A DNA stretch of 64,000 nt from the NCBI GenBank assembly GCA_000424365.1, contig AUJT01000001.1, forward strand, positions 1 to 64,000. Direction: 5' to 3'. Of this stretch, positions 19,488 to 46,853 are shown in pieces. This stretch comes from Lachnospiraceae bacterium NK4A144 (GTDB taxonomy: Bacteria; Bacillota; Clostridia; Lachnospirales; Lachnospiraceae). Position numbers and translations under genes: made by a program. The notes beneath the pieces are model-generated. The model made no database searches and had not been told where the DNA came from. It worked only from the letters and a program-made list of their open reading frames with translations. Numbering within the stretch: the stretch's first letter is position 1; each line of letters opens with the position of its first letter.

Positions 19488-19583
19488 AATGCCATGCTTC
19501 TATTAGCCAAAAGCAGAAAAAAATTAAAAATGGCTAATAGATATAAGATTCTGAATTTAAATGTAAATTATTTCTTATGCGGT

Positions 19584-19610
19584 TAAGGAAATCATTTAAT
19601 CTGTCGATAT
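19584..19610 (+). promoter_or_regulatory. Sigma-28-like (flagellar) promoter
   Basis: TAAG (19584-19587), 15-base spacer, GTCGATAT (19603-19610), close to the sigma-28/SigD consensus TAAA-N15-GCCGATAA. It precedes the gene at 19717. Inference from sequence only. Confidence 0.5.
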
Positions 19611-19626
19611 ACTAAATAGCGATGGA

Positions 19627-19716: not shown

Positions 19717-20292
19717 ATGAATATATTTCTTAACCCGAATCATGAAGAGCAAAAAAGGATTACAACATCCAAAGAGCTTGCCCAATATATCTTACAAAGT
19801 GGAAATGATATAGAAAAGATGTCAGAGGAAGACCGCACTAAGATGGATGCCAAGATAACTGCCAAGCTTCAATCTGGTAAAAAGCTGTCACAGAAAGAGA
19901 TGGACTATCTAAGAAAAACCAATTCCATTCTGTACGCACATGCTTTGAGAGTACAGAGAATGGCAGAGGCTGTAGAGGAACAGCTAAAGCATGCAAAGAG
20001 CAAGGAAGAGGCTGACCAGATCATATCTTCTGCCCTAAGTGGCATATCAAAAAATGATCCTGACAGGGAGTACATCTTTGCGGCTGTCAATCGTATTTCG
20101 ACAGAATTTCATAAATCAGGTGCTTATGAGAAACTCCCGAATACAGTTGAAGAGGGAGATAAAGAGGGAAAAGAAAGCGGAGACGTCTTTTCTGATGCGG
20201 AAGATGATGAGGGCGAAGGTTTTGACCTTAAGAACTGGAGCCCACTTAGAGAAGTATATGACAGCATGCCCACATTTTCTGTAGGAGCGTAG
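19717..20292 (+). CDS. Helical protein of unknown function
   Basis: 191 residues beginning MNIFLNPNHEEQKRITTSKE, mostly charged helices (about 20-140) and an acidic C-terminal tail (EDDEGEGFDL). No signal peptide or membrane span. Start ATG 19717 has AAGGAG. It resembles short proteins found with DUF6033 and flagellar-associated genes in Lachnospiraceae, and its promoter looks sigma-28-like, so a motility-linked exported or chaperone role is possible. No known domain. Confidence 0.65.
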   Translation: MNIFLNPNHEEQKRITTSKELAQYILQSGNDIEKMSEEDRTKMDAKITAKLQSGKKLSQKEMDYLRKTNSILYAHALRVQRMAEAVEEQLKHAKSKEEADQIISSALSGISKNDPDREYIFAAVNRISTEFHKSGAYEKLPNTVEEGDKEGKESGDVFSDAEDDEGEGFDLKNWSPLREVYDSMPTFSVGA

Positions 20293-20477: not shown

Positions 20478-20699
20478 ATGAATAATACGATCAATGTAAA
20501 TGGTATGACGAGCTATTATAGCAGTTTTACCAAATCTGTTACTTCTCAGACGGCGGTGGATAAAGATTCGAAGGTTAATAGCGGGACTAAAATAGTATTT
20601 TATGTAACATATCAGGTATGGAATGCGGGAGGGTACAGAGCCTTCCCGCTTTGCATTTCACAACAAAAAAACTGCGGTTCACGTATCGGTGATCATTAG
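20478..20699 (+). CDS. Small ORF, probably truncated
   Basis: 73 residues. The first 40 (MNNTINVNGMTSYYSSFTKS...) look like the N-terminus of the small exported proteins seen in this locus. The rest runs through a hairpin (20622-20657) and a LytTR operator and is unlike protein sequence. Likely a gene whose body was lost. Upstream 20293-20477 contains only hairpins. Confidence 0.35.
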   Translation: MNNTINVNGMTSYYSSFTKSVTSQTAVDKDSKVNSGTKIVFYVTYQVWNAGGYRAFPLCISQQKNCGSRIGDH

Positions 20700-20721
20700 T
20701 GCGTCTGAAATAACCGATAAT
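20653..20721 (+). promoter_or_regulatory. LytTR operator 1 and promoter
   Basis: Direct repeats GCATTTCAC (20653-20661) and GCGGTTCAC (20674-20682) have starts exactly 21 bp apart, followed by a CGATAAT -10-like box at 20715-20721. The same arrangement occurs at 22901 and 23801. It precedes the response regulator gene, so autoregulation is expected. Confidence 0.75.
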
Positions 20722-20754
20722 ATAGATATAGTATGCCCAAAGGAAGGATGTTAT

Positions 20755-21495
20755 ATGAAACTGGCAATCTGTGATGATGATAAGAAAATACGGGAACTGA
20801 TTGAGGAGTCTGTCAGGGAAGTATCTGGAGATATGGAGATTGAAGTGTTTGCTGATGCAAGGGGTATCCTGGCTCCCGGATTCGACGCAGATATACTTTT
20901 TCTGGATATACAGATGCCGGGGATTGACGGAATGAATGCCGCAAGGATGATACGTGCGGATGGAAAGAAGACGGTCATTGTATTCGTTACAGCACTTGAG
21001 GAAGAGGTGTTCAAGGCATTTGAGGTCGGGGCATTTAATTATATCGTAAAGCCTTTTGGAAAGAAACGAATTACGGAAGTAATAAAACGCGCGATTGAGC
21101 AGGCTGATGAAGTCCGTTATATTGAAAAAACTCTCACGGAGAAAGAGGATGAAAAACATTCCGCCCATGTCATAACCGTAAGATCAGGCGGCTCAAACAG
21201 AAAGGTGATACTGTCGGAAATAGTGTATGCTGAAATCTTTGACAGACGGATAATTCTTCATATGAAGGATCGCGATAATGTTGACTATAACGGGAGAATA
21301 TCGGAACTGGAAAGCATTTCCGGTCAGGATTTCTTTCGGGTTCACAGGGCGTATCTGATCAATCTGGCTTATGTGAAATCCTATGATTCCAAGTCCGTCC
21401 GGGTGGGTGATGCAGAAATTCCCGTTGCCCGGGGAAAATATCAGGATCTTATAAAAGCTTACCTTTCCTATTACACACGGAGGGAAGGTCTATGA
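20755..21495 (+). CDS. LytTR family response regulator
   Basis: 246 residues: receiver domain (1-120) with acidic pocket CDDD (6-9), phosphoacceptor Asp51 (LFLDIQMPG) and the late Lys in IVKPFG. A LytTR DNA-binding domain follows (about 145-240: ITVRSGGSNRKVILSEIVYAE, FFRVHRAYLINL). It belongs to the AgrA/VirR type, which binds paired direct repeats one or two helical turns apart. Start ATG 20755 has AAGGAAGG. The stop overlaps the sensor kinase start (ATGA). Confidence 0.93.
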   Translation: MKLAICDDDKKIRELIEESVREVSGDMEIEVFADARGILAPGFDADILFLDIQMPGIDGMNAARMIRADGKKTVIVFVTALEEEVFKAFEVGAFNYIVKPFGKKRITEVIKRAIEQADEVRYIEKTLTEKEDEKHSAHVITVRSGGSNRKVILSEIVYAEIFDRRIILHMKDRDNVDYNGRISELESISGQDFFRVHRAYLINLAYVKSYDSKSVRVGDAEIPVARGKYQDLIKAYLSYYTRREGL

Positions 21496-22898
21496 TGGAA
21501 TATCTGGTTAATAATTTTCAGTCATATGCGGAAGCGTATATCCGTGTTCTTATTGAATTGTATATGTTGCTGAATGTGGCTCTTCTTATATATTGGCTCA
21601 GGCCGTTTATGTGCAACAAAAGATCCGTTTATGTCTCTGCGGTAGTGTACTATGCGCTGTGGCTGGTCTGTAACTATGCAGGAACAAGCAAGGAGATGGA
21701 CAGGATTCTGACTATCGGGTTTTTAGTTCTGGCAATTCTTATTGCCTGGCTCTTAGATAACAGAAGAAATCTGGTGCAGAAGGTCTTTCTGTTTTTTGTT
21801 TTTCGTCTGATAAGTTGGCTGTCTATAGAACTGTTTACTGAAATAGGCTTCTGGGAGAGGAATCTTGTTTTTAAATTCGATTGGTATCAGCATAGTGTAG
21901 AGGCTACTGTCATTGAATTCTTAGTATGGAATCCTGTTCAGTACGGACTTGCATTAATGCTCTTATATGCAGTCATAAGGATTCTCCATAAGACATACCG
22001 GTATAAGCGTGATGAACTGACATGGCAGGAGTTAATCCTGCTGCTTGCGCCGGCGGCAAGCCTGCTTTTGGTAAAACCGATCATGTCATCCTATTTTTTT
22101 CTATGGATGGACGGAATAGAAAACGGAAGCATCAAAGAGAACATACCGGCAAACCCATACAGGGCTCTTTTTTGCCTGGTGGCTTATGTGCCGATCATTG
22201 CAGTTATCGTGCTATACCAAAAGCTGAAGGAAAAGCAGGAAGAGGAGTATGTGAAGGACTCTGCCAGAAAGCAGGTTGGTGATATGGTCGGACATGTGGA
22301 ACACATCGAGGAAATATACGACAGGATGAGGGGGATCCGCCATGACTTTGGAAATCATCTGACGGTCATTGAAAGACTTGCAGAAGACGGAAAAACCAAG
22401 GAACTGTCCGATTATATCAGAGAACTTGGGGAGAATATCGAGAGCCTGCAGCCCATGATAAAAACAGGAAATGCAGTTACGGATGTAGTGTTGTCGGAGA
22501 CGGCTGAAAAATGTGAGAAAGAAGGGATCACTTTCGAAAGCGCATTTGCATATCCGGATGGTCTGGATATTAATCCGTTTGATATCAGTGTGGTGTTAAC
22601 AAACGCTCTGCAAAATGCCATAGAAGCGTCTTCATCAGTGTCAGATCCTCAGATCAGGATAAAATCGGTTCAAAAGGAGCGGGTATTTATCATAAATGTC
22701 AGAAACATTATTCAGGGAAGAGTATATATCACAGAAGACGGACTGCCGGAAACATCTAAGCGTGAATCGGGTCATGGATATGGGCTTAAAAATATAAGAA
22801 ATATCGCTGCGAAATATAAGGGTGATATAGAGATCAGGCAGGAAGAGAAGGATGGAAAGCTGTATTTCATTCTCAACATAATGCTGATGGGCGCTTGA
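21492..22898 (+). CDS. GHKL sensor histidine kinase (AgrC-like)
   Basis: 468 residues: five to six membrane spans in the first 245 residues, then a coiled linker and a kinase core of the GHKL type with MRGIRHDFGNHL (phospho-His near 282), the N box LTNALQNAIEAS near 370, and GHGYGLKNIRNIA. AgrC-like sensors bind peptides or small signals at the membrane. It is translationally coupled to the LytTR regulator. No peptide precursor or AgrB-like protease is visible next to it, so the signal is unknown. Confidence 0.9.
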   Translation: MMEYLVNNFQSYAEAYIRVLIELYMLLNVALLIYWLRPFMCNKRSVYVSAVVYYALWLVCNYAGTSKEMDRILTIGFLVLAILIAWLLDNRRNLVQKVFLFFVFRLISWLSIELFTEIGFWERNLVFKFDWYQHSVEATVIEFLVWNPVQYGLALMLLYAVIRILHKTYRYKRDELTWQELILLLAPAASLLLVKPIMSSYFFLWMDGIENGSIKENIPANPYRALFCLVAYVPIIAVIVLYQKLKEKQEEEYVKDSARKQVGDMVGHVEHIEEIYDRMRGIRHDFGNHLTVIERLAEDGKTKELSDYIRELGENIESLQPMIKTGNAVTDVVLSETAEKCEKEGITFESAFAYPDGLDINPFDISVVLTNALQNAIEASSSVSDPQIRIKSVQKERVFIINVRNIIQGRVYITEDGLPETSKRESGHGYGLKNIRNIAAKYKGDIEIRQEEKDGKLYFILNIMLMGA

Positions 22899-22900
22899 GT

Positions 22901-22968
22901 GCGGTTTACAACATAATAGATGCGGTTCGCGTAAAGGCACTTGATTCAGTGAAAAAACTTACGATAAT
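22901..22968 (+). promoter_or_regulatory. LytTR operator 2 and promoter
   Basis: GCGGTTTAC (22901-22909) and GCGGTTCGC (22922-22930) have starts 21 bp apart. A CGATAAT box follows at 22962-22968. It precedes the FliD-like gene. Confidence 0.75.
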
Positions 22969-23004
22969 CACAGTAGATACCTGTTTGGAGAGGAGGTGAA
23001 AGGG

Positions 23005-23736
23005 ATGATCAGGTTTAACAGTTTTAATTATGGCAGTCTGTTTGGGTACGGATCGGGCAGTTCTCTTTATAGCAATCTTTCACAGCTTTCAAGTGTGAGA
23101 TCCGGATCATACGCTAAGGCACTCAAATCCTATTATGGAAGGAATAATCAGACTGCTTCCACACAAAAGAACTCAGCTGTCAATAAGTATAATTACAGTA
23201 CCTACACACAGCAGAGTGGCCTGTCAAATGTTTCTAAGGAGAGCACCGATTTATCTGCGGCAGCAAAGAAACTGACAGATACGGGCAAGGAGGGTCTTTT
23301 TGCCAGTGAGGAAAAATATGATGCGGATGCAGCATATAAGGTAGCCAGTGATTTCGTGACAAATTATAATGAAACACTGGATGCGGTAAACAAGACCACG
23401 AATGCGGCTGTGAGCAGTGCGGCAGGAAGCATGACCAGGATGACCGGAGTAATGACCAAAAGCCTCAGCGGAATAGGCATTTCTGTAGGAAAAGATGGTA
23501 GAATGTCCATAAACGAGGAAGAGTTCAAGAATGCCGGTTTTGACAAAGTGAAGTCAATGCTTGGTACGAACGGATCTTTTGCAAGAATCATAGGATCTTC
23601 TGCGCAAAGACTCAGCTCAGCTGCGGAACAGCAGAGCCGTCAGATGTCATTGGGAAGTACCGGACTTTACGGCAGGTATGGATCTTATTTTGGAAATTAC
23701 GGCTTCGGTGGCTCTCGTTTTGATGGTTGGATCTAA
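23005..23736 (+). CDS. FliD-like secreted protein
   Basis: 243 residues. The N-terminus (SFNYGSLFGYGSGSSLYSNL) is Ser/Gly/Tyr-rich and lacks a Sec signal. The middle and end (ASDFVTNYNETLDAV, GIGISVGKDGRMSINEEEF, VKSMLGTNGSFA) resemble the C-terminal region of the flagellar cap FliD, though much shorter than the usual 400 or more residues. The Tyr/Gly-rich tail is unusual. I start at ATG 23005, since GAGGAGG is spaced for it rather than for GTG 22996. Driven by LytTR operator 2. Likely exported by the flagellar apparatus; function unknown. Confidence 0.6.
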   Translation: MIRFNSFNYGSLFGYGSGSSLYSNLSQLSSVRSGSYAKALKSYYGRNNQTASTQKNSAVNKYNYSTYTQQSGLSNVSKESTDLSAAAKKLTDTGKEGLFASEEKYDADAAYKVASDFVTNYNETLDAVNKTTNAAVSSAAGSMTRMTGVMTKSLSGIGISVGKDGRMSINEEEFKNAGFDKVKSMLGTNGSFARIIGSSAQRLSSAAEQQSRQMSLGSTGLYGRYGSYFGNYGFGGSRFDGWI

Positions 23737-23767
23737 GTGATTTCTCAAAGATGGAATAGTATCAGGT

Positions 23768-23800
23768 AAGGCGTTCTGTGTATAATCGGAGCGCCTTTTT
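23768..23800 (+). terminator. Terminator after FliD-like gene
   Basis: AAGGCGTTC (23768-23776) pairs with GAGCGCCTT (23789-23797), followed by T's, directly before LytTR operator 3. Confidence 0.8.
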
Positions 23801-23867
23801 GCCGTTCACAGCAAAATAAGTGCGGTTCACGCAAACATGGTTCATTGTGGCGTTCCGGTAACCGATA
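23801..23867 (+). promoter_or_regulatory. LytTR operator 3 and promoter
   Basis: GCCGTTCAC (23801-23809) and GCGGTTCAC (23822-23830) have starts 21 bp apart, with CGATA at 23863-23867 at the same offset as in operators 1 and 2. It precedes the coiled-coil gene at 23927. Confidence 0.75.
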
Positions 23868-23926
23868 CCCACTATATAAGGTATATAAGGAATTCCGGCA
23901 CGGAGGCCGGTGGAAAAGAGGTGCTT

Positions 23927-24718
23927 ATGAATGGAATCGCAGGAGTCTCTTTTCAGGAAGTTCCCGGAGGATTAAAAGTTCATGTAAGGAAGAGTCAAAA
24001 CAAGTCCTCGGCAGGAAAACTGAAGAAACGGTTACCATACAATTTCAAGCAGATGTCAAAGCAGATCATGCAGGCGAAGACATCTGATGCTGCGCGTCCG
24101 CTGGTGGCAAAAGCACAGGCAAAGCTTTCATGGCTATATAAGAAACTGCGCAGTGGTGAATATGGTGACAGTGAGATAGCTGCCGCTATCATACATGCCG
24201 CAGCTATGGAAAGGATCGCAAAGCGTAAGGTCAGGCATCTGGAAGAAGAGGAAGCCGCTGAAAATGAAAGTAGTGTGATGGGGGTTCCCGGTGAGGAAGA
24301 GGAGATATACGGAAAAGATGAATTAAAGGCTGGTCTTGAAGATAGTGAGGAGATCTCAGAGGAAATGATGAAACAGATGATGGAGGAGATAGAGGAACTT
24401 GAAGAAGAGCTGGCGGAAGATGTGATGTCAGAGCTGCAGGATATGATATCCTGTGCAAGCGGAGATATGACAGAGGAAGAAATAGAAGAGTTGAAACGAA
24501 AACACCGGAATGATGAGGAACGTCAGATCACGCGTGCAGATCTTAAATATCTGAAGGCACTGTTTGATAGGTTGGAGCAGGAGAAAAAACAGGTATCTTC
24601 CGGGAATATCGGGCAGACGTCGGGCTCATCAGAATCATTTTCCTGTGTCGTTGACTGCATTCCCGATGTGGAGGCAGTAGATGTTGGTGTTGGAAGTTTT
24701 GTAGATGCATGTGTATGA
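23927..24718 (+). CDS. Acidic coiled-coil protein, paralogue of 45792 gene
   Basis: 263 residues beginning MNGIAGVSFQEVPGG. A basic region (15-110) with LPYNFKQMSKQIMQAKTSD precedes a long Glu-rich coiled coil (about 125-235) and a low-complexity end. MTEEEIEELKRKHRNDEE and ADLKYLKAL closely match the protein at 45792-46853 (MSEEELEELKRKHRAAE, ADMDYLKGM), so they are paralogues. No signal peptide. Start 23927 has AAGAGG. Controlled by LytTR operator 3 and probably co-transcribed with the two genes below. Function unknown. Confidence 0.7.
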   Translation: MNGIAGVSFQEVPGGLKVHVRKSQNKSSAGKLKKRLPYNFKQMSKQIMQAKTSDAARPLVAKAQAKLSWLYKKLRSGEYGDSEIAAAIIHAAAMERIAKRKVRHLEEEEAAENESSVMGVPGEEEEIYGKDELKAGLEDSEEISEEMMKQMMEEIEELEEELAEDVMSELQDMISCASGDMTEEEIEELKRKHRNDEERQITRADLKYLKALFDRLEQEKKQVSSGNIGQTSGSSESFSCVVDCIPDVEAVDVGVGSFVDACV

Positions 24719-24756: not shown

Positions 24757-25716
24757 ATGGCAATTGATTTAACTACACTTAACACCACAGAGATCATACC
24801 GCAGAAGGTTTACAATTTGAACAATTCCTATAAGGCTGATCAGAATAAGATCAGGGAAAACTGGGAAGAGAAAAAGGCGACTGCTATAGATCTGATCGAG
24901 GAATCAAAAAAGAACGGAACATATAGAGAAAGTGCTTCGCTTGAAGGCACCGGTGTAAGTGGTCTTACTGCCGGGAAAGGTGCATATTGTAATTATTCGC
25001 TGGATGCGTTCTTTAGGAAAGATATGCCGCTTTTATCTGATGATAACGGAAACTTTACAGTTGGAGGAGCAACATTTACCAGAGAGGAACTTGAAGAATG
25101 CCGCGCTGTCATGAAGGCTGCTGTAGATGGAATTGGATGCGGAATTGGTAAGAATACGAACATAGATTACAGAAACTATGCAGAAATGGAGATTGCGGCA
25201 GGTGGTGTCAGGGCGTATGCCAGCGAGAATCTTACTGAAAAACAGGCGGCGGTAGTAAATAAAGCGATGAAGGAATACAACGACGCACTAATAAAACATG
25301 AAAAGGATACGCTTGAAAGAGCAGGCACCATTGATATATCGGGAAGTGATGTGTCCAAATATTATAGAAAAGCACAGCCTATCCCTAAAGAGATGCTTGA
25401 TCGTATACATAGTTTCAATAGTAACTCGAAACTAAATAGCGGCGATGTAGGGACTATTCAGTCTGCAACTAATGAGGATCTTATAAGTAAGATTAGGGAT
25501 ATGTTCTCGAAACTTGACTATTCTGACAGTTCATCGCTTGATACTGTTTCTGAAAAGTATAAGGAATACATTACTCCGGCTAAGATGTCACTTGGGGTTT
25601 CCTCTGCGAATGGATACTTGTCACAGGCTCTGAATCAGGACATATTGGGATTCCAAAGCCTGTTCAAGAACATGATGAATGTCATAAGGTATCGTTCAAT
25701 AGATTTCAGGATGTAA
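24757..25716 (+). CDS. DUF3879-like protein of unknown function
   Basis: 319 residues. The central part (TFTREELEECRAVMKAAVDG, IDYRNYAEMEIAAGGVRAYA, LTEKQAAVVNKAMKEYND) resembles the DUF3879 family of gut Clostridia (family call from memory, moderate). No membrane span or signal peptide. Start ATG 24757 has AAAGGAGG. It lies 38 bases after the coiled-coil gene, in the LytTR-controlled group. Role unknown; similar proteins sit with flagellar-type exported proteins. Confidence 0.6.
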   Translation: MAIDLTTLNTTEIIPQKVYNLNNSYKADQNKIRENWEEKKATAIDLIEESKKNGTYRESASLEGTGVSGLTAGKGAYCNYSLDAFFRKDMPLLSDDNGNFTVGGATFTREELEECRAVMKAAVDGIGCGIGKNTNIDYRNYAEMEIAAGGVRAYASENLTEKQAAVVNKAMKEYNDALIKHEKDTLERAGTIDISGSDVSKYYRKAQPIPKEMLDRIHSFNSNSKLNSGDVGTIQSATNEDLISKIRDMFSKLDYSDSSSLDTVSEKYKEYITPAKMSLGVSSANGYLSQALNQDILGFQSLFKNMMNVIRYRSIDFRM

Positions 25717-25798: not shown

Positions 25799-26647
25799 AT
25801 GTCAATGGGAATTAAGGGTGTATCACAGGTGGGAGCCGTTGCGCAGTATGAGGCATCTGCTGTTAAATCAAGTGAAGACAAACTTTCAAAGAAAGCTCAA
25901 GACTATCTTGCAGATCTTAGGAGCAAGTATGGCGATTACGACTTTATTGTTGCTAACGACTCTGATGATAAGAAGGCTCTTGTTAAACAGAGCACAAAAT
26001 CAACATCTGTCGTATTCTCAACATCAGAGATGGAGAGAATGGCAAAGGATGAGAAGTATGCAGCACAGAAGCTTAAGAACGTAGATACCGCTGTTCGTAA
26101 TGGCAATAAGATTGCAGAGGGTCAGGGTGTTACTTATGAGAAGGGTAGCACACAGAGTTCCGGATTATATTCAATCAATAAAATGAGTAAAGCTGACAGG
26201 AGTGCGCTTGTAGATCAGCTCAAAGCAGATATGGAATCTAGGAAATCTCAGCTCATTGATCTTGTACAGAAGACTATTTCCGGTCAGGTTGACAGCTTTG
26301 GAAAGGCTTCCGATGAAAACAGCATTTGGAGAACTCTTGCAAGCGGTAAGTTTACTGTTGATGCAGCTACAAAGGCACAGGCTCAGAAGGATATTTCTGA
26401 AGACGGTTACTGGGGTGTAAAACAGACATCTCAGAGATTGTTTGACTTCGCAAGCGCTCTTGCAGGTGACGATGTTGATAAGATGAAGGAAATGCAGGCA
26501 GCTATGGAAAAAGGATACAAGATGGCTACCAAGGCTTGGGGTAGAGAACTTCCTAGCATTAGTAAGGATACTCTTGATGCTGCCAATAAGTTGTTTGATG
26601 ATTACTATAAATCCAAAGAACAGCAGAAGACAACCATCGAAGAATAA
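25799..26647 (+). CDS. DUF6033-like protein
   Basis: 282 residues beginning MSMGIKGVSQVGAV, then LSKKAQDYLADLRSKYGDYD, a conserved block matching the gene at 44879 (LSDKAKDYYSKLKSKFHNLD). SEMERMAKDEKYA matches EKLERMATDESFR there. The C-terminal half is helical. This is the DUF6033 type of core, function unknown. Start has AAAGGAGA. A separate transcript or the end of the LytTR group; a strong terminator follows. Confidence 0.65.
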   Translation: MSMGIKGVSQVGAVAQYEASAVKSSEDKLSKKAQDYLADLRSKYGDYDFIVANDSDDKKALVKQSTKSTSVVFSTSEMERMAKDEKYAAQKLKNVDTAVRNGNKIAEGQGVTYEKGSTQSSGLYSINKMSKADRSALVDQLKADMESRKSQLIDLVQKTISGQVDSFGKASDENSIWRTLASGKFTVDAATKAQAQKDISEDGYWGVKQTSQRLFDFASALAGDDVDKMKEMQAAMEKGYKMATKAWGRELPSISKDTLDAANKLFDDYYKSKEQQKTTIEE

Positions 26648-27572: not shown

Positions 27573-27589
27573 GAAAGGAGGTGGCGTCA

Positions 27590-28594
27590 ATGAGAAAATA
27601 TTGCGAGGAATGTGGAAGAGAAGTTGAAACAAAGGTCATTACAAAGAGAGAATCATATGACGTTTGTGGCGAATCTATTGAAGTGGATGCGCAGATATTA
27701 GTTTGTGCAGAGTGTGGTGAAGAGTTTTATTGTGAAGAGCTTGATAACGCCACTCTGATACGGGCATATAATGAGTACCGAAGAAGACATAAGCTCTTAT
27801 TGCCTGAAGAGATTAAAAAGATCAGAGAGCAATATGGACTTAGCCAGAGAAGCTTTGCAAAACTCCTGAATTGGGGAGATAAAACTATCTGCCGATATGA
27901 GAATGGATCAATTCAAGACAAAGCGCATAATAGTCTTCTGTTATTCTTGCGTGAGCCTGAAAATATGAGAACATATCTTACAGAAAACGAGATCGTTCTT
28001 GATGAAAGGCAGAAAGCAAAATTACTGGATACTGTTGATAAGCTAGAGCAGGATACAGAGTATCGAGCAGGTAGACGTTTTTTTGAAATTTTCTTTTCAA
28101 GAATTCCATCAGAGGAGAATGGATTCAAAGGCTTTGACTATGAGAAACTCTGTGCTATGGTGCTGTTTTTTGCACATAAAAGCACAGGGTTACTTAAGAC
28201 AAAACTAATGAAACTACTCAACTACTCGGATATGGTTTTCTATAAGGAAAATGGAATATCTATTTCTGGTTTGAGGTATGCACATCTTCCATATGGACCG
28301 GTACCAGATAATTTTGATATGATCTTGGGGAAGATGGCAGCGGATCACCTTGCTCATATTGAAGTTATATATGATGGAGCATATGAAAAACACCAGGTGA
28401 TTCCTGAATGTGATGTTCCTGAAGGTGTTCTTTCAGATTCAGAAGTAGAAATGCTTAACCGAATCTATGAAAAGTTTAAGAGTTTCGGCTCCGTGGAAAT
28501 CTCTGATTATTCCCATAAAGAGAAGGGGTACAATGCTACAAAGACGGGACAGATTATATCCTATGCATATGCGATGGATATTCAGCTGAATTAA
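27590..28594 (+). CDS. MqsA/YgiT-type antitoxin fused to Panacea (DUF4065) domain
   Basis: 334 residues: zinc finger (CEECGRE and CAECGEE), HTH (IREQYGLSQRSFAKLLNWGDKT, residues about 75-110), linker, then a SocA/Panacea-like domain (about 170-330: KLCAMVLFFAHKSTG, KLMKLLNYSDMVFYKENG, YAHLPYGPVPD). It neutralises MqsR and represses the operon. The Panacea fusion makes it about 200 residues longer than E. coli MqsA. Start ATG 27590 has AAAGGAGG. A terminator follows. Confidence 0.88.
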   Translation: MRKYCEECGREVETKVITKRESYDVCGESIEVDAQILVCAECGEEFYCEELDNATLIRAYNEYRRRHKLLLPEEIKKIREQYGLSQRSFAKLLNWGDKTICRYENGSIQDKAHNSLLLFLREPENMRTYLTENEIVLDERQKAKLLDTVDKLEQDTEYRAGRRFFEIFFSRIPSEENGFKGFDYEKLCAMVLFFAHKSTGLLKTKLMKLLNYSDMVFYKENGISISGLRYAHLPYGPVPDNFDMILGKMAADHLAHIEVIYDGAYEKHQVIPECDVPEGVLSDSEVEMLNRIYEKFKSFGSVEISDYSHKEKGYNATKTGQIISYAYAMDIQLN

Positions 28595-44775: not shown

Positions 44776-44801
44776 TAGAAAACTGCATGACGTGCCGATA
44801 T
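44776..44801 (+). promoter_or_regulatory. Sigma-28-like (flagellar) promoter
   Basis: TAGA (44776-44779), 14-base spacer, GCCGATAT (44794-44801), an exact match to the sigma-28 -10 element. It precedes the DUF6033 and coiled-coil pair. Confidence 0.65.
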
Positions 44802-44878
44802 AAAGAAAGAAGACCCTAAGTGTTTTTGTGTGATGAAATGGATTTCGGCAGTTCCACGATACAAGGAGGTGGCACGTC

Positions 44879-45772
44879 ATGTCAGGCTTAATGGGTATCT
44901 CTGCATATATGCAGATGAATGAATCATGGAAAAACGTGAATAAGAGGTCTGATAAGGTTTCGGAAAAACGACCTCAGAAAGCGGATCATGATAATCTTGC
45001 AAAGGAGACGGAAGCCGGTGAAGTTGAGGTACAGCGCTGGTCTCCTATCGATACGAATAGTTCCCTGGTTCCGAGACAAACTGAATATGGAAACACAATT
45101 GGAAATGTGCAGCTTTCTGATAAGGCAAAGGATTATTACAGCAAGCTGAAATCGAAATTTCATAATCTCGATTTCATTGCCGTGAGCAAGGATATGAAGG
45201 CCCAGGTGCAGCAAAATGCGGCATCATATGGCAATTCAAAGAGAATGGTTGTTTTGATCGATGAAGAAAAACTGGAACGCATGGCAACAGACGAATCCTT
45301 CAGAAAAAAGTATGAAGGAATAATAGCCATATCACAAAGTAAGCTTTCTGATGCAAAGAACAGCCTTGTCAGCAGCGGCGCGAATGTAAAGAACTTTGGA
45401 ATGTCTGTAGATTCAAATGGAAAAGAGAGTTTCTTTGCAACAGTAGAAAAATCTCAGGATTTGCAGAAAAAGCGCATTGAGAAAAAGGCTGCTGAGAAGA
45501 AGGAAAAGAAGATCCACGATAAGAAGGCTGCTGAAAAGAAGGCACGTGAAGAGCGTATACGAAAGAGACAGGAAGATAAAAAAGCTGACAAGACCGAGGA
45601 TTCTGATAAAGATTTAAGGGATATAGATGATAAGGAATTTGTCACGATAGGATCGGATTCCTTGGATAATCTCATTTCAAAAGTTCAGAAGTATTCGTAT
45701 GCAATGGCTTCAGACCGTGTTCTTACAAATGAAGAGCGTATGATAGGCAGACAGGTTGATTTTAGAGGATAG
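44879..45772 (+). CDS. DUF6033 family protein
   Basis: 297 residues. The conserved core (about 78-180: VQLSDKAKDYYSKLKSKFHN, RMVVLIDEEKLERMATDESF, KNFGMSVDSNGKESFFAT) is followed by a very basic Lys/Glu-rich helix (195-245) and an end IGSDSLDNLISKVQKYSYAM. No signal peptide. Start has AAGGAGGTGG. It is coupled to the coiled-coil gene 45792 and preceded by a sigma-28-like promoter, so a flagellar-class gene of unknown function. Related to 25799-26647. Confidence 0.75.
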   Translation: MSGLMGISAYMQMNESWKNVNKRSDKVSEKRPQKADHDNLAKETEAGEVEVQRWSPIDTNSSLVPRQTEYGNTIGNVQLSDKAKDYYSKLKSKFHNLDFIAVSKDMKAQVQQNAASYGNSKRMVVLIDEEKLERMATDESFRKKYEGIIAISQSKLSDAKNSLVSSGANVKNFGMSVDSNGKESFFATVEKSQDLQKKRIEKKAAEKKEKKIHDKKAAEKKAREERIRKRQEDKKADKTEDSDKDLRDIDDKEFVTIGSDSLDNLISKVQKYSYAMASDRVLTNEERMIGRQVDFRG

Positions 45773-45791
45773 GACGAACGGAGGGCGTGAT

Positions 45792-46853
45792 ATGGATATT
45801 ACGATTTATGCACAAACTCTGAATTCTTCTTCGTTTCTGAAAAAATCCGGAGGAAACAAAAAAAAGTCTGATAATGCTGCGGTCAGGACCACAGAAAAGA
45901 CAGGAGCCGGTACCGGTCGCTCTGAGGAGATGCGGGAGCTTATAAAGAATCTTAGTACGAAAAAGACTGAAGGCCCCAAGACTTTTGTAGGAGTTTCTCA
46001 GGATAAGGTAAAGGGTTATCTGGATCTGTCGACTTCATCCACGAGCAAGAAAACAGAGAAAGTTAAAAAGCCGGTCAGATATAGCTATAAAGAAGTCTCG
46101 GCAAAGATACTCAGGGCAAAGACCTCTGTGAGTGCGGGGCAGGCGGTACTCGCGGCTAAAAGAAAGGTCGTGGAAGTCAGGAGACAGATCTCATCCGGCG
46201 ATGGGGATGCGGAAGAATTGCAGCTGGCACTTACTCATGCAAAACGTATGGAAATGGTCGCACGGAAGAAAAAACATCATCTGGAATTGGAAGAGATGGT
46301 TGTTAATACGCAGCGGCGTGATGAAAACATGGATAAGATGGAAGAAGCATCTGACGATATCCAAAGTGCTTTAGTATCCGCAGAGGAAGAAAAAGTAACT
46401 AAGGAAGAGGATGAGATCTTTGAAGAGCGTCAGGAGATGCTGGAAGAAGCGGCAGCTGAGGCAGAAGAACGAAGCTCTGAAGTTTCGGAAGAAATGCTTG
46501 ATAAGCTGAATAAGATGATCTCTGACTTTGGTGAGGAAGAGCTGAAAGAACTCGAGGAACAAATGGAAATGCTCGAAAATATTGAAATCATAGATCCTCA
46601 TATGAGTGAAGAAGAACTTGAAGAGCTAAAGCGGAAGCATAGGGCAGCGGAGAGCCGCGCTATAGTTAAAGCTGACATGGATTACCTAAAGGGCATGATA
46701 AAGCATCAGATGGAAAAAGGTAATTCAGTGTCGGGAGGTTCGTCTGGAGGAAATACTTTTAGTATGCCGTCAGTAACCTACACATCGAGCGTAGAGGTAT
46801 CGATGCCGGCGCTTGCAGGCGCAGATGGAATGACGCTTGATATACAGGTATAA
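45792..46853 (+). CDS. Acidic coiled-coil protein, paralogue of 23927 gene
   Basis: 353 residues starting MDITIYAQTLNSSSFLKKSGG. A Ser/Thr/Lys-rich first part, basic helix (YSYKEVSAKILRAKTSVSAG), Glu-rich coiled coil (about 180-300) and a Gly/Ser end. MSEEELEELKRKHRAAESRA and ADMDYLKGM match the protein at 23927. No signal peptide. It follows DUF6033 by 19 bases behind CGGAGGG. Probably partners DUF6033, as the same two families recur at the LytTR locus. Confidence 0.7.
   Translation: MDITIYAQTLNSSSFLKKSGGNKKKSDNAAVRTTEKTGAGTGRSEEMRELIKNLSTKKTEGPKTFVGVSQDKVKGYLDLSTSSTSKKTEKVKKPVRYSYKEVSAKILRAKTSVSAGQAVLAAKRKVVEVRRQISSGDGDAEELQLALTHAKRMEMVARKKKHHLELEEMVVNTQRRDENMDKMEEASDDIQSALVSAEEEKVTKEEDEIFEERQEMLEEAAAEAEERSSEVSEEMLDKLNKMISDFGEEELKELEEQMEMLENIEIIDPHMSEEELEELKRKHRAAESRAIVKADMDYLKGMIKHQMEKGNSVSGGSSGGNTFSMPSVTYTSSVEVSMPALAGADGMTLDIQV

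Follow-up and report, generated by a model that had tools for sequence, protein, structure and literature searches.

Putative LytTR operators precede sigma-28-like promoters at a two-component locus of Lachnospiraceae bacterium NK4A144

A LytTR two-component system at sigma-28-like promoters

We analysed a 64,000-nt stretch of the genome of Lachnospiraceae bacterium NK4A144 (contig AUJT01000001.1, positions 1–64,000; hereafter the window) that encodes a two-component system made up of a LytTR response regulator and a GHKL sensor kinase. Three pairs of direct repeats, lying before the regulator gene, a gene for a FliD_C-like protein and a gene for an acidic coiled-coil protein, are well supported as LytTR operators, with binding itself inferred from sequence. 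Each pair is followed at a near-constant distance by a CGATA box, which is best read as the −10 element of a sigma-28 (FliA) promoter. Taken as a whole, the observations are best explained by a LytTR activator that rescues weak sigma-28 promoters, an explanation that we favour with some confidence.

According to this explanation, a response regulator of the AgrA/LytR type would bind the 9-12-9 direct repeats located 10–11 bp upstream of the −35 position of weak sigma-28 (FliA/SigD) promoters and, once bound, would activate them. Its targets would be its own kinase operon and genes for proteins without signal peptides, namely FliD_C-like, coiled-coil, DUF6033-like and other proteins. Two inputs would be combined at such promoters: active sigma-28, available once the flagellar programme has passed its checkpoint, and phosphorylated regulator, reporting a signal seen by the GHKL kinase. 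Regulator binding, sigma-28 use, activation as opposed to repression, and the checkpoint logic are all predictions from the arrangement of sites and genes described below.

Table 1. Coordinates of the predicted features in the window
Feature	Coordinates	Strand	Evidence or remark
LytTR operator pair 1 (9-12-9), GCATTTCAC-N12-GCGGTTCAC	20653..20682	+	upstream of response regulator; same place kept in relatives
LytTR operator pair 2, GCGGTTTAC-N12-GCGGTTCGC	22901..22930	+	begins 2 bp past kinase stop codon
LytTR operator pair 3, GCCGTTCAC-N12-GCGGTTCAC	23801..23830	+	pattern match
Sigma-28-like −10, CCGATAA	20714..20720	+	lacks conserved T at −21
Sigma-28-like −10, ACGATAA	22961..22967	+	T at −21 present
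Sigma-28-like −10, CCGATAC	23862..23868	+	T at −21 present
Contrast: sigma-28-like promoter GTTAAGG...TGTCGATATA, no operator pair	19582..19611	+	upstream of gene 19717–20292
Contrast: sigma-28-like −10 GCCGATATAAA, no operator pair	44794..44804	+	upstream of DUF6033 gene 44879–45772
LytTR response regulator, 246 aa, receiver and LytTR domain	20755..21495	+	Pfam PF00072 71.6 bits, PF04397 48.7 bits
GHKL sensor kinase, 468 aa, RHDFGNH box	21492..22898	+	Pfam PF14501 81.7 bits
FliD_C-like small protein, 243 aa, no hydrophobic N-terminus	23005..23736	+	PF07195 21.8 bits, cut-off 25.4
Acidic coiled-coil protein, 263 aa, target of site 3	23927..24718	+	reading frame and homologues behind repeat pairs
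Downstream gene, no family assigned, possibly in site-3 operon	24757..25716	+	reading frame, Pfam search
DUF6033 protein	25799..26647	+	PF19498 56.4 bits

Operator pairs and their proposed regulator

All three pairs (Table 1) are 9-12-9 bp direct repeats with a period of exactly 21 bp, and the CGATA boxes start at 20715, 22962 and 23863, which puts them 38, 37 and 38 bases past the second GTTC. Positions, period and offsets are as an earlier sequence-only reading of the window had given them. Its placing of the sites before the response regulator, FliD-like and coiled-coil genes is likewise confirmed, the distances to the likely gene starts at 20755, 23005 and 23927 being 102, 104 and 126 nt. 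The spacer CANNA and the T directly before the second half are also conserved, so that the operator extends beyond the two 9-mers. Pair 1 adjoins a terminator-like hairpin (20625–20649), and pair 3 lies directly 3′ of a long-loop hairpin and T-run that was seen by eye and is absent from the terminator scan list.

The arrangement is rare. Allowing up to three mismatches, a search pattern derived from the three window sites themselves (GCNNTTYACNNCANNANNNNTGCGGTTCRCG) matches these sites alone in the window and nothing in 100 shuffles. Across the 4.09-Mb genome, the same search returned the three perfect sites and one site with three mismatches (C37:5454), while a reversed-pattern control returned none; no full match beyond the three sites is present in the genome. 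The sequence-only reading had proposed a small regulon around a LytTR regulator with phased operators, one of them before the regulator's own gene. That proposal is supported, since the pattern scan did not bring up many genome hits of equal score and since the regulator combines a receiver with a LytTR DNA-binding domain, both over the Pfam cut-offs, and has 9-12-9 direct repeats upstream of its own operon. Self-activation is suggested by the position of pair 1.

Seven LytTR domains are encoded in the genome, and the repeats might in principle be bound by another of these regulators, or by several. We consider this very improbable, given that the sites recur beside the same regulator in relatives and inside a near-identical block (see below). 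Moreover, the site at C37:5454 lies next to another LytTR operon. Its regulator, a paralogue with 37% identity to the one studied here, has a pair with a spelling of its own. When simple oriented scans were run upstream of the five remaining LytTR genes, the only repeats to appear were weak and spelled otherwise. The C37 locus (L052:4192–7615) is a second two-component operon of the LytTR type, followed by genes of its own; its pair reads CCGTTTAC/CCGTTCAC, and the box at the corresponding offset is CCGAA. Separately, the LytTR-domain gene at C3:29672 (L010, about position 950) has GCCGATATATTATA, a candidate sigma-28 −10, just before its possible start.

The CGATA box as a probable sigma-28 −10 element

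For Butyrivibrio fibrisolvens, the published sigma-28 consensus is TAAA N16-17 MCGATAa, and that of the housekeeping factor (sigma-43) is TTtACA N19 cATAAT (PMC3720852). The extended boxes of window sites 1–3 read CGATAAT, CGATAAT and CGATACC. Among 48 non-redundant sites, which were selected by their repeats and not by CGATA, 34 have CGATA at offset 58–64 (shuffle mean 0.60, maximum 4), as do all three sites of the window. A second position is kept as well: among the 43 sites with CGA(T/A/C), 39 have a T at −21 relative to CGA, a count that becomes 37 when two sites are aligned on an upstream CGAC, as against 36% T nearby. We also built a position weight matrix of the flagellin −10 from 10 flagellin upstream stretches with [CT]CGATAT, leaving out L115 and L121. 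Its best match lies at the expected place and exceeds 6 bits in 36/67 sites (shuffles 0.7%). The window genome encodes FliA (C11:85799, 265.7 bits), and a FliA-family match is present in 30/30 searched genomes that have the regulator or a relative, 27 of them over the cut-off; the best FliA matches of the three others look split or cut.

Flagellin promoters provide a contrast. In 38 oriented 350-nt stretches taken from upstream of flagellin genes of the genus and not selected for the box, [ACT]CGATA is present in 29 and absent from nine; 27 stretches have [ACT]CGATAT, 26 of these with T at −21. The longer CGATATA occurs in 25/38 flagellin stretches versus 4/34 repeat sites with CGATA, which makes the repeat-site promoters look weaker. 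If these promoters depend on an activator, a weaker −10 core next to its binding site is to be expected. None of the 38 flagellin stretches contains a repeat pair at the threshold of 14.5 (highest score 13.5 of 16.5). The window itself holds two sigma-28-like promoters without an operator pair (Table 1), both with CGATATA boxes. One of them precedes a DUF6033 gene and a coiled-coil-like gene (44879–46853), the second of which resembles, by eye, the coiled-coil target of site 3. A third DUF6033 gene of the genome, on C23, is preceded by CTAAA...TGCCGATATAAA. DUF6033 genes thus occur behind ordinary sigma-28-like promoters too.

Several observations weigh against a sigma-28 assignment. CGATA is replaced by CGAAA, CGAATA or CGACA at some sites; the 14 of 48 sites without it comprise seven with CGAAA/CGAAT, one with CGACA, one with CGATT, two in the Pseudobutyrivibrio regulator promoter and three apparent chance matches. 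A −35 TAAA is not found at canonical spacing. Only the single T is kept (39/43; 2/3 in the window), and window site 1 lacks even that, so our claim is limited to promoters that are sigma-28-like and activator-dependent, not canonical. In the window genome, CGATATA lies upstream of only three of nine flagellin-domain loci. A flagellin match is found in all 48 genus genomes, and the presence of a flagellar system therefore hardly discriminates. Many of the genomes are related, so that the 48 sites are not independent events. Furthermore, CGATAAT includes GATAAT, one mismatch off the housekeeping −10, and TATAAT-like hexamers are enriched overall (21/48 versus a shuffle mean of 11.6 and maximum of 19). 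The matches of a sigma-70 scan include TTGATT-16-GATAAT at site 2 and, slightly downstream, CTGAAA-16-TATAGT at site 1; the scan gave 12 matches in the whole stretch versus 8.0 ± 3.0 in shuffles, and none at site 3.

The last of these points would fit ordinary LytTR promoters at which the regulator activates housekeeping sigma-A transcription with GATAAT as the −10. CGATAAT is present at two of the three window sites, TATAAT occurs in the regulator's promoter at Pseudobutyrivibrio-type loci, and the promoters tabulated for LytTR regulatory systems (LRS) are mainly sigma-A-like (PMC6193735). We nevertheless hold this alternative to be doubtful. The conserved letters are CGATA preceded by C or A and not the AT that would complete a housekeeping element, which follows in just 10/34 sites. 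TATAAT-like hexamers apart from one starting inside CGATA are at chance: they occur in 12/48 sites, and shuffles average 11.6 when every hexamer of this kind is counted. The T at −21 occupies the same place as in flagellin promoters, and sigma-28-like promoters stand before two DUF6033 genes of this genome. The sequence-only reading had called CGATA a −10-like box; its position and offset hold, but a plain housekeeping LytTR promoter is probably not what it marks, since the box fits a sigma-28 −10.

A regulator bound at these sites might also repress or modulate sigma-28 promoters instead of activating them. Position alone is no proof of activation, and the flagellin promoters of the genus lack such repeats. 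The repeats, however, are placed upstream of the core promoter without covering it, their distance agrees with that described for autoactivating LytTR systems, and the difference in CGATATA frequency between repeat and flagellin promoters is in the direction that activator dependence predicts. We judge repression or modulation unlikely.

Conservation in relatives

The arrangement is found again in rumen Lachnospiraceae, Pseudobutyrivibrio among them. When CGATA is left out of the pattern, the pair matches 24 times in 48 genus genomes, including the window genome with four matches, versus one reversed-control match. CGA(T/A/C) is found at the same offset in 21 of the 24, and the other three look like chance matches. 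A relaxed pair score, applied to L125–L157 of the 80 loci from a regulator scan of named genomes as well as to earlier loci, gave 67 distinct sites, of which 51 have CGA[TA]A at offset 60–62 and 16 do not. The genes behind the sites cluster by similarity into the regulator and seven other clusters, with two reservations: an unrelated protein was grouped with the regulators in one cluster, and one singleton stems from a chance match. Unlike genes therefore stand behind the same architecture. In the scan of named genomes, close relatives of the regulator occur in rumen Lachnospiraceae, Pseudobutyrivibrio and Butyrivibrio fibrisolvens 16/4. Order-wide, the pair scan gave 46 matches in 37/392 genomes versus 36 control matches by our own count; at this scale the pattern is near chance except in the window genome, G399 and some Pseudobutyrivibrio-like genomes.

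Nine Pseudobutyrivibrio-type loci (L139–L147) show a natural swap of −10 types. Here TATAAT stands behind the pair upstream of the regulator, at roughly the usual distance, while CGATA is retained at the target site further downstream. Both −10 types thus appear to be combined with the repeats, the sigma-28 type being kept at the target. Upstream of the regulator gene in one of these loci (L139:5885–5936), three half-sites stand in tandem with a 21-bp period.

Genes of the locus and their products

The kinase has five transmembrane-like stretches by hydropathy. Its GHKL domain is over the cut-off, and it scores 35.8 bits against the AgrC equivalog model, whose cut-off is 500. The first target, the FliD_C-like protein, belongs to a family in which seven of nine members, the window protein included, have a FliD_C match at E ≤ 0.05 (best 2.7e-8). 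We rejected strict membership in FliD (hook-associated protein 2) for this protein because PF07195 is below the cut-off. A Foldseek search with its AlphaFold2 model (mean predicted local distance difference test score, pLDDT, 66.8) found no match at E ≤ 0.001, and a sequence search of the PDB gave 13 weak matches, mainly kinesin heavy chains, the best with an E-value of 0.022. Homologues of the coiled-coil protein encoded after site 3 stand behind repeat pairs in L133 (with CGATA) and L136 (with CGATT). DUF6033-like genes are targets of such repeat sites in relatives; a literature search of openly licensed papers found none on DUF6033.

The sequence-only reading had described an exported-protein locus, a view for which we find no support. 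Hydropathy revealed no hydrophobic N-terminus among the tested products of the locus except in the kinase, nor in any of the 34 non-regulator targets (33 distinct sequences) of sites with CGA[TA]A, which makes Sec export unlikely. Export of the target products by the flagellar route is possible. A fuller version would have the LytTR signal and the sigma-28 checkpoint act as two keys, both needed, for a new class of flagellum-linked proteins; these products would pass out of the cell by the flagellar export gate and serve rumen Lachnospiraceae as effectors or surface proteins. We put this forward as a tentative conjecture.

Downstream of the locus, 27581–28594 encodes a protein with MqsA-like antitoxin and SocA/Panacea domains.

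Probable horizontal movement of the locus

Window positions 20597–23740 match L126:5843–8986 of isolate NK4A179 as a 3.1-kb block with 97.3% DNA identity, and the match stops at the end of the FliD-like gene. The FliA proteins of the two genomes are only 64% identical. The reverse is seen for the L128 genome, whose FliA is closer (82%), yet whose regulator is only 71% identical. This discordance indicates that the block of operator, regulator, kinase and target probably moved horizontally. A recent horizontal exchange of the regulator, the kinase and the first target is probable, perhaps by allele replacement.

A small frame at 20479–20649, whose start resembles the target proteins of the locus by eye, looks truncated at the edge of the near-identical block (20578–20597) and is possibly a target gene cut by exchange. 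In isolate RGIG4306 (L156:5824–6193), the 97.6% identity to this locus does not reach beyond site 1 and the first part of the regulator. The frame then continues into other sequence, and this copy accordingly looks broken.

Relation to known systems and significance

Sigma-28 promoters are generally regarded as independent of activators. Activated sigma-28 promoters are already known, with CRP and MarA as activators, both in E. coli. CRP activates E. coli sigma-28 promoters and is centred at −49.5 at aer (PMC2859248). The aer and trg promoters resemble those described here in having an activator site upstream of a sigma-28 promoter, but there a global regulator serves chemosensor genes, whereas here a dedicated LytTR two-component system has a site before its own gene. 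Sigma-28 is reported to require near-consensus promoters, and MarA to rescue the poor flgBP2 promoter (PMC12781870). In our reading, too, an activator makes up for a weak sigma-28 promoter, with the difference that MarA binds between −35 and −10 and the repeats here lie upstream.

The putative operators themselves resemble those of known LytTR regulators. Those tabulated for LRS, among them HdrR and BrsR, are likewise two 9-bp direct repeats, in most cases with a 12-bp spacer; they tend to lie 10 bp before the −35, and autoregulation is a further shared feature (PMC6193735). Unlike in HdrR and BrsR, the core promoter here is sigma-28-like, and the targets are function-unassigned families, some of them flagellum-associated, and not bacteriocins. 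A LytTR regulator is also tied to flagellar expression in the agr system of Clostridioides difficile, where fliA and flgM transcripts are down in an agrA mutant and both genes are suggested as direct AgrA targets (PMC3754575). In the present case, the operators lie at sigma-28-like promoters themselves. Among titles and the opening parts of abstracts in the openly licensed literature, we found no description of a LytTR regulator at a sigma-28 promoter.

If the proposed mechanism is true, LytTR-controlled sigma-28 promoters would exist across several genera, and the late flagellar genes of gut anaerobes could be split into signal-dependent subsets. The operators would also offer a testable handle on several function-unassigned protein families, DUF6033 among them.

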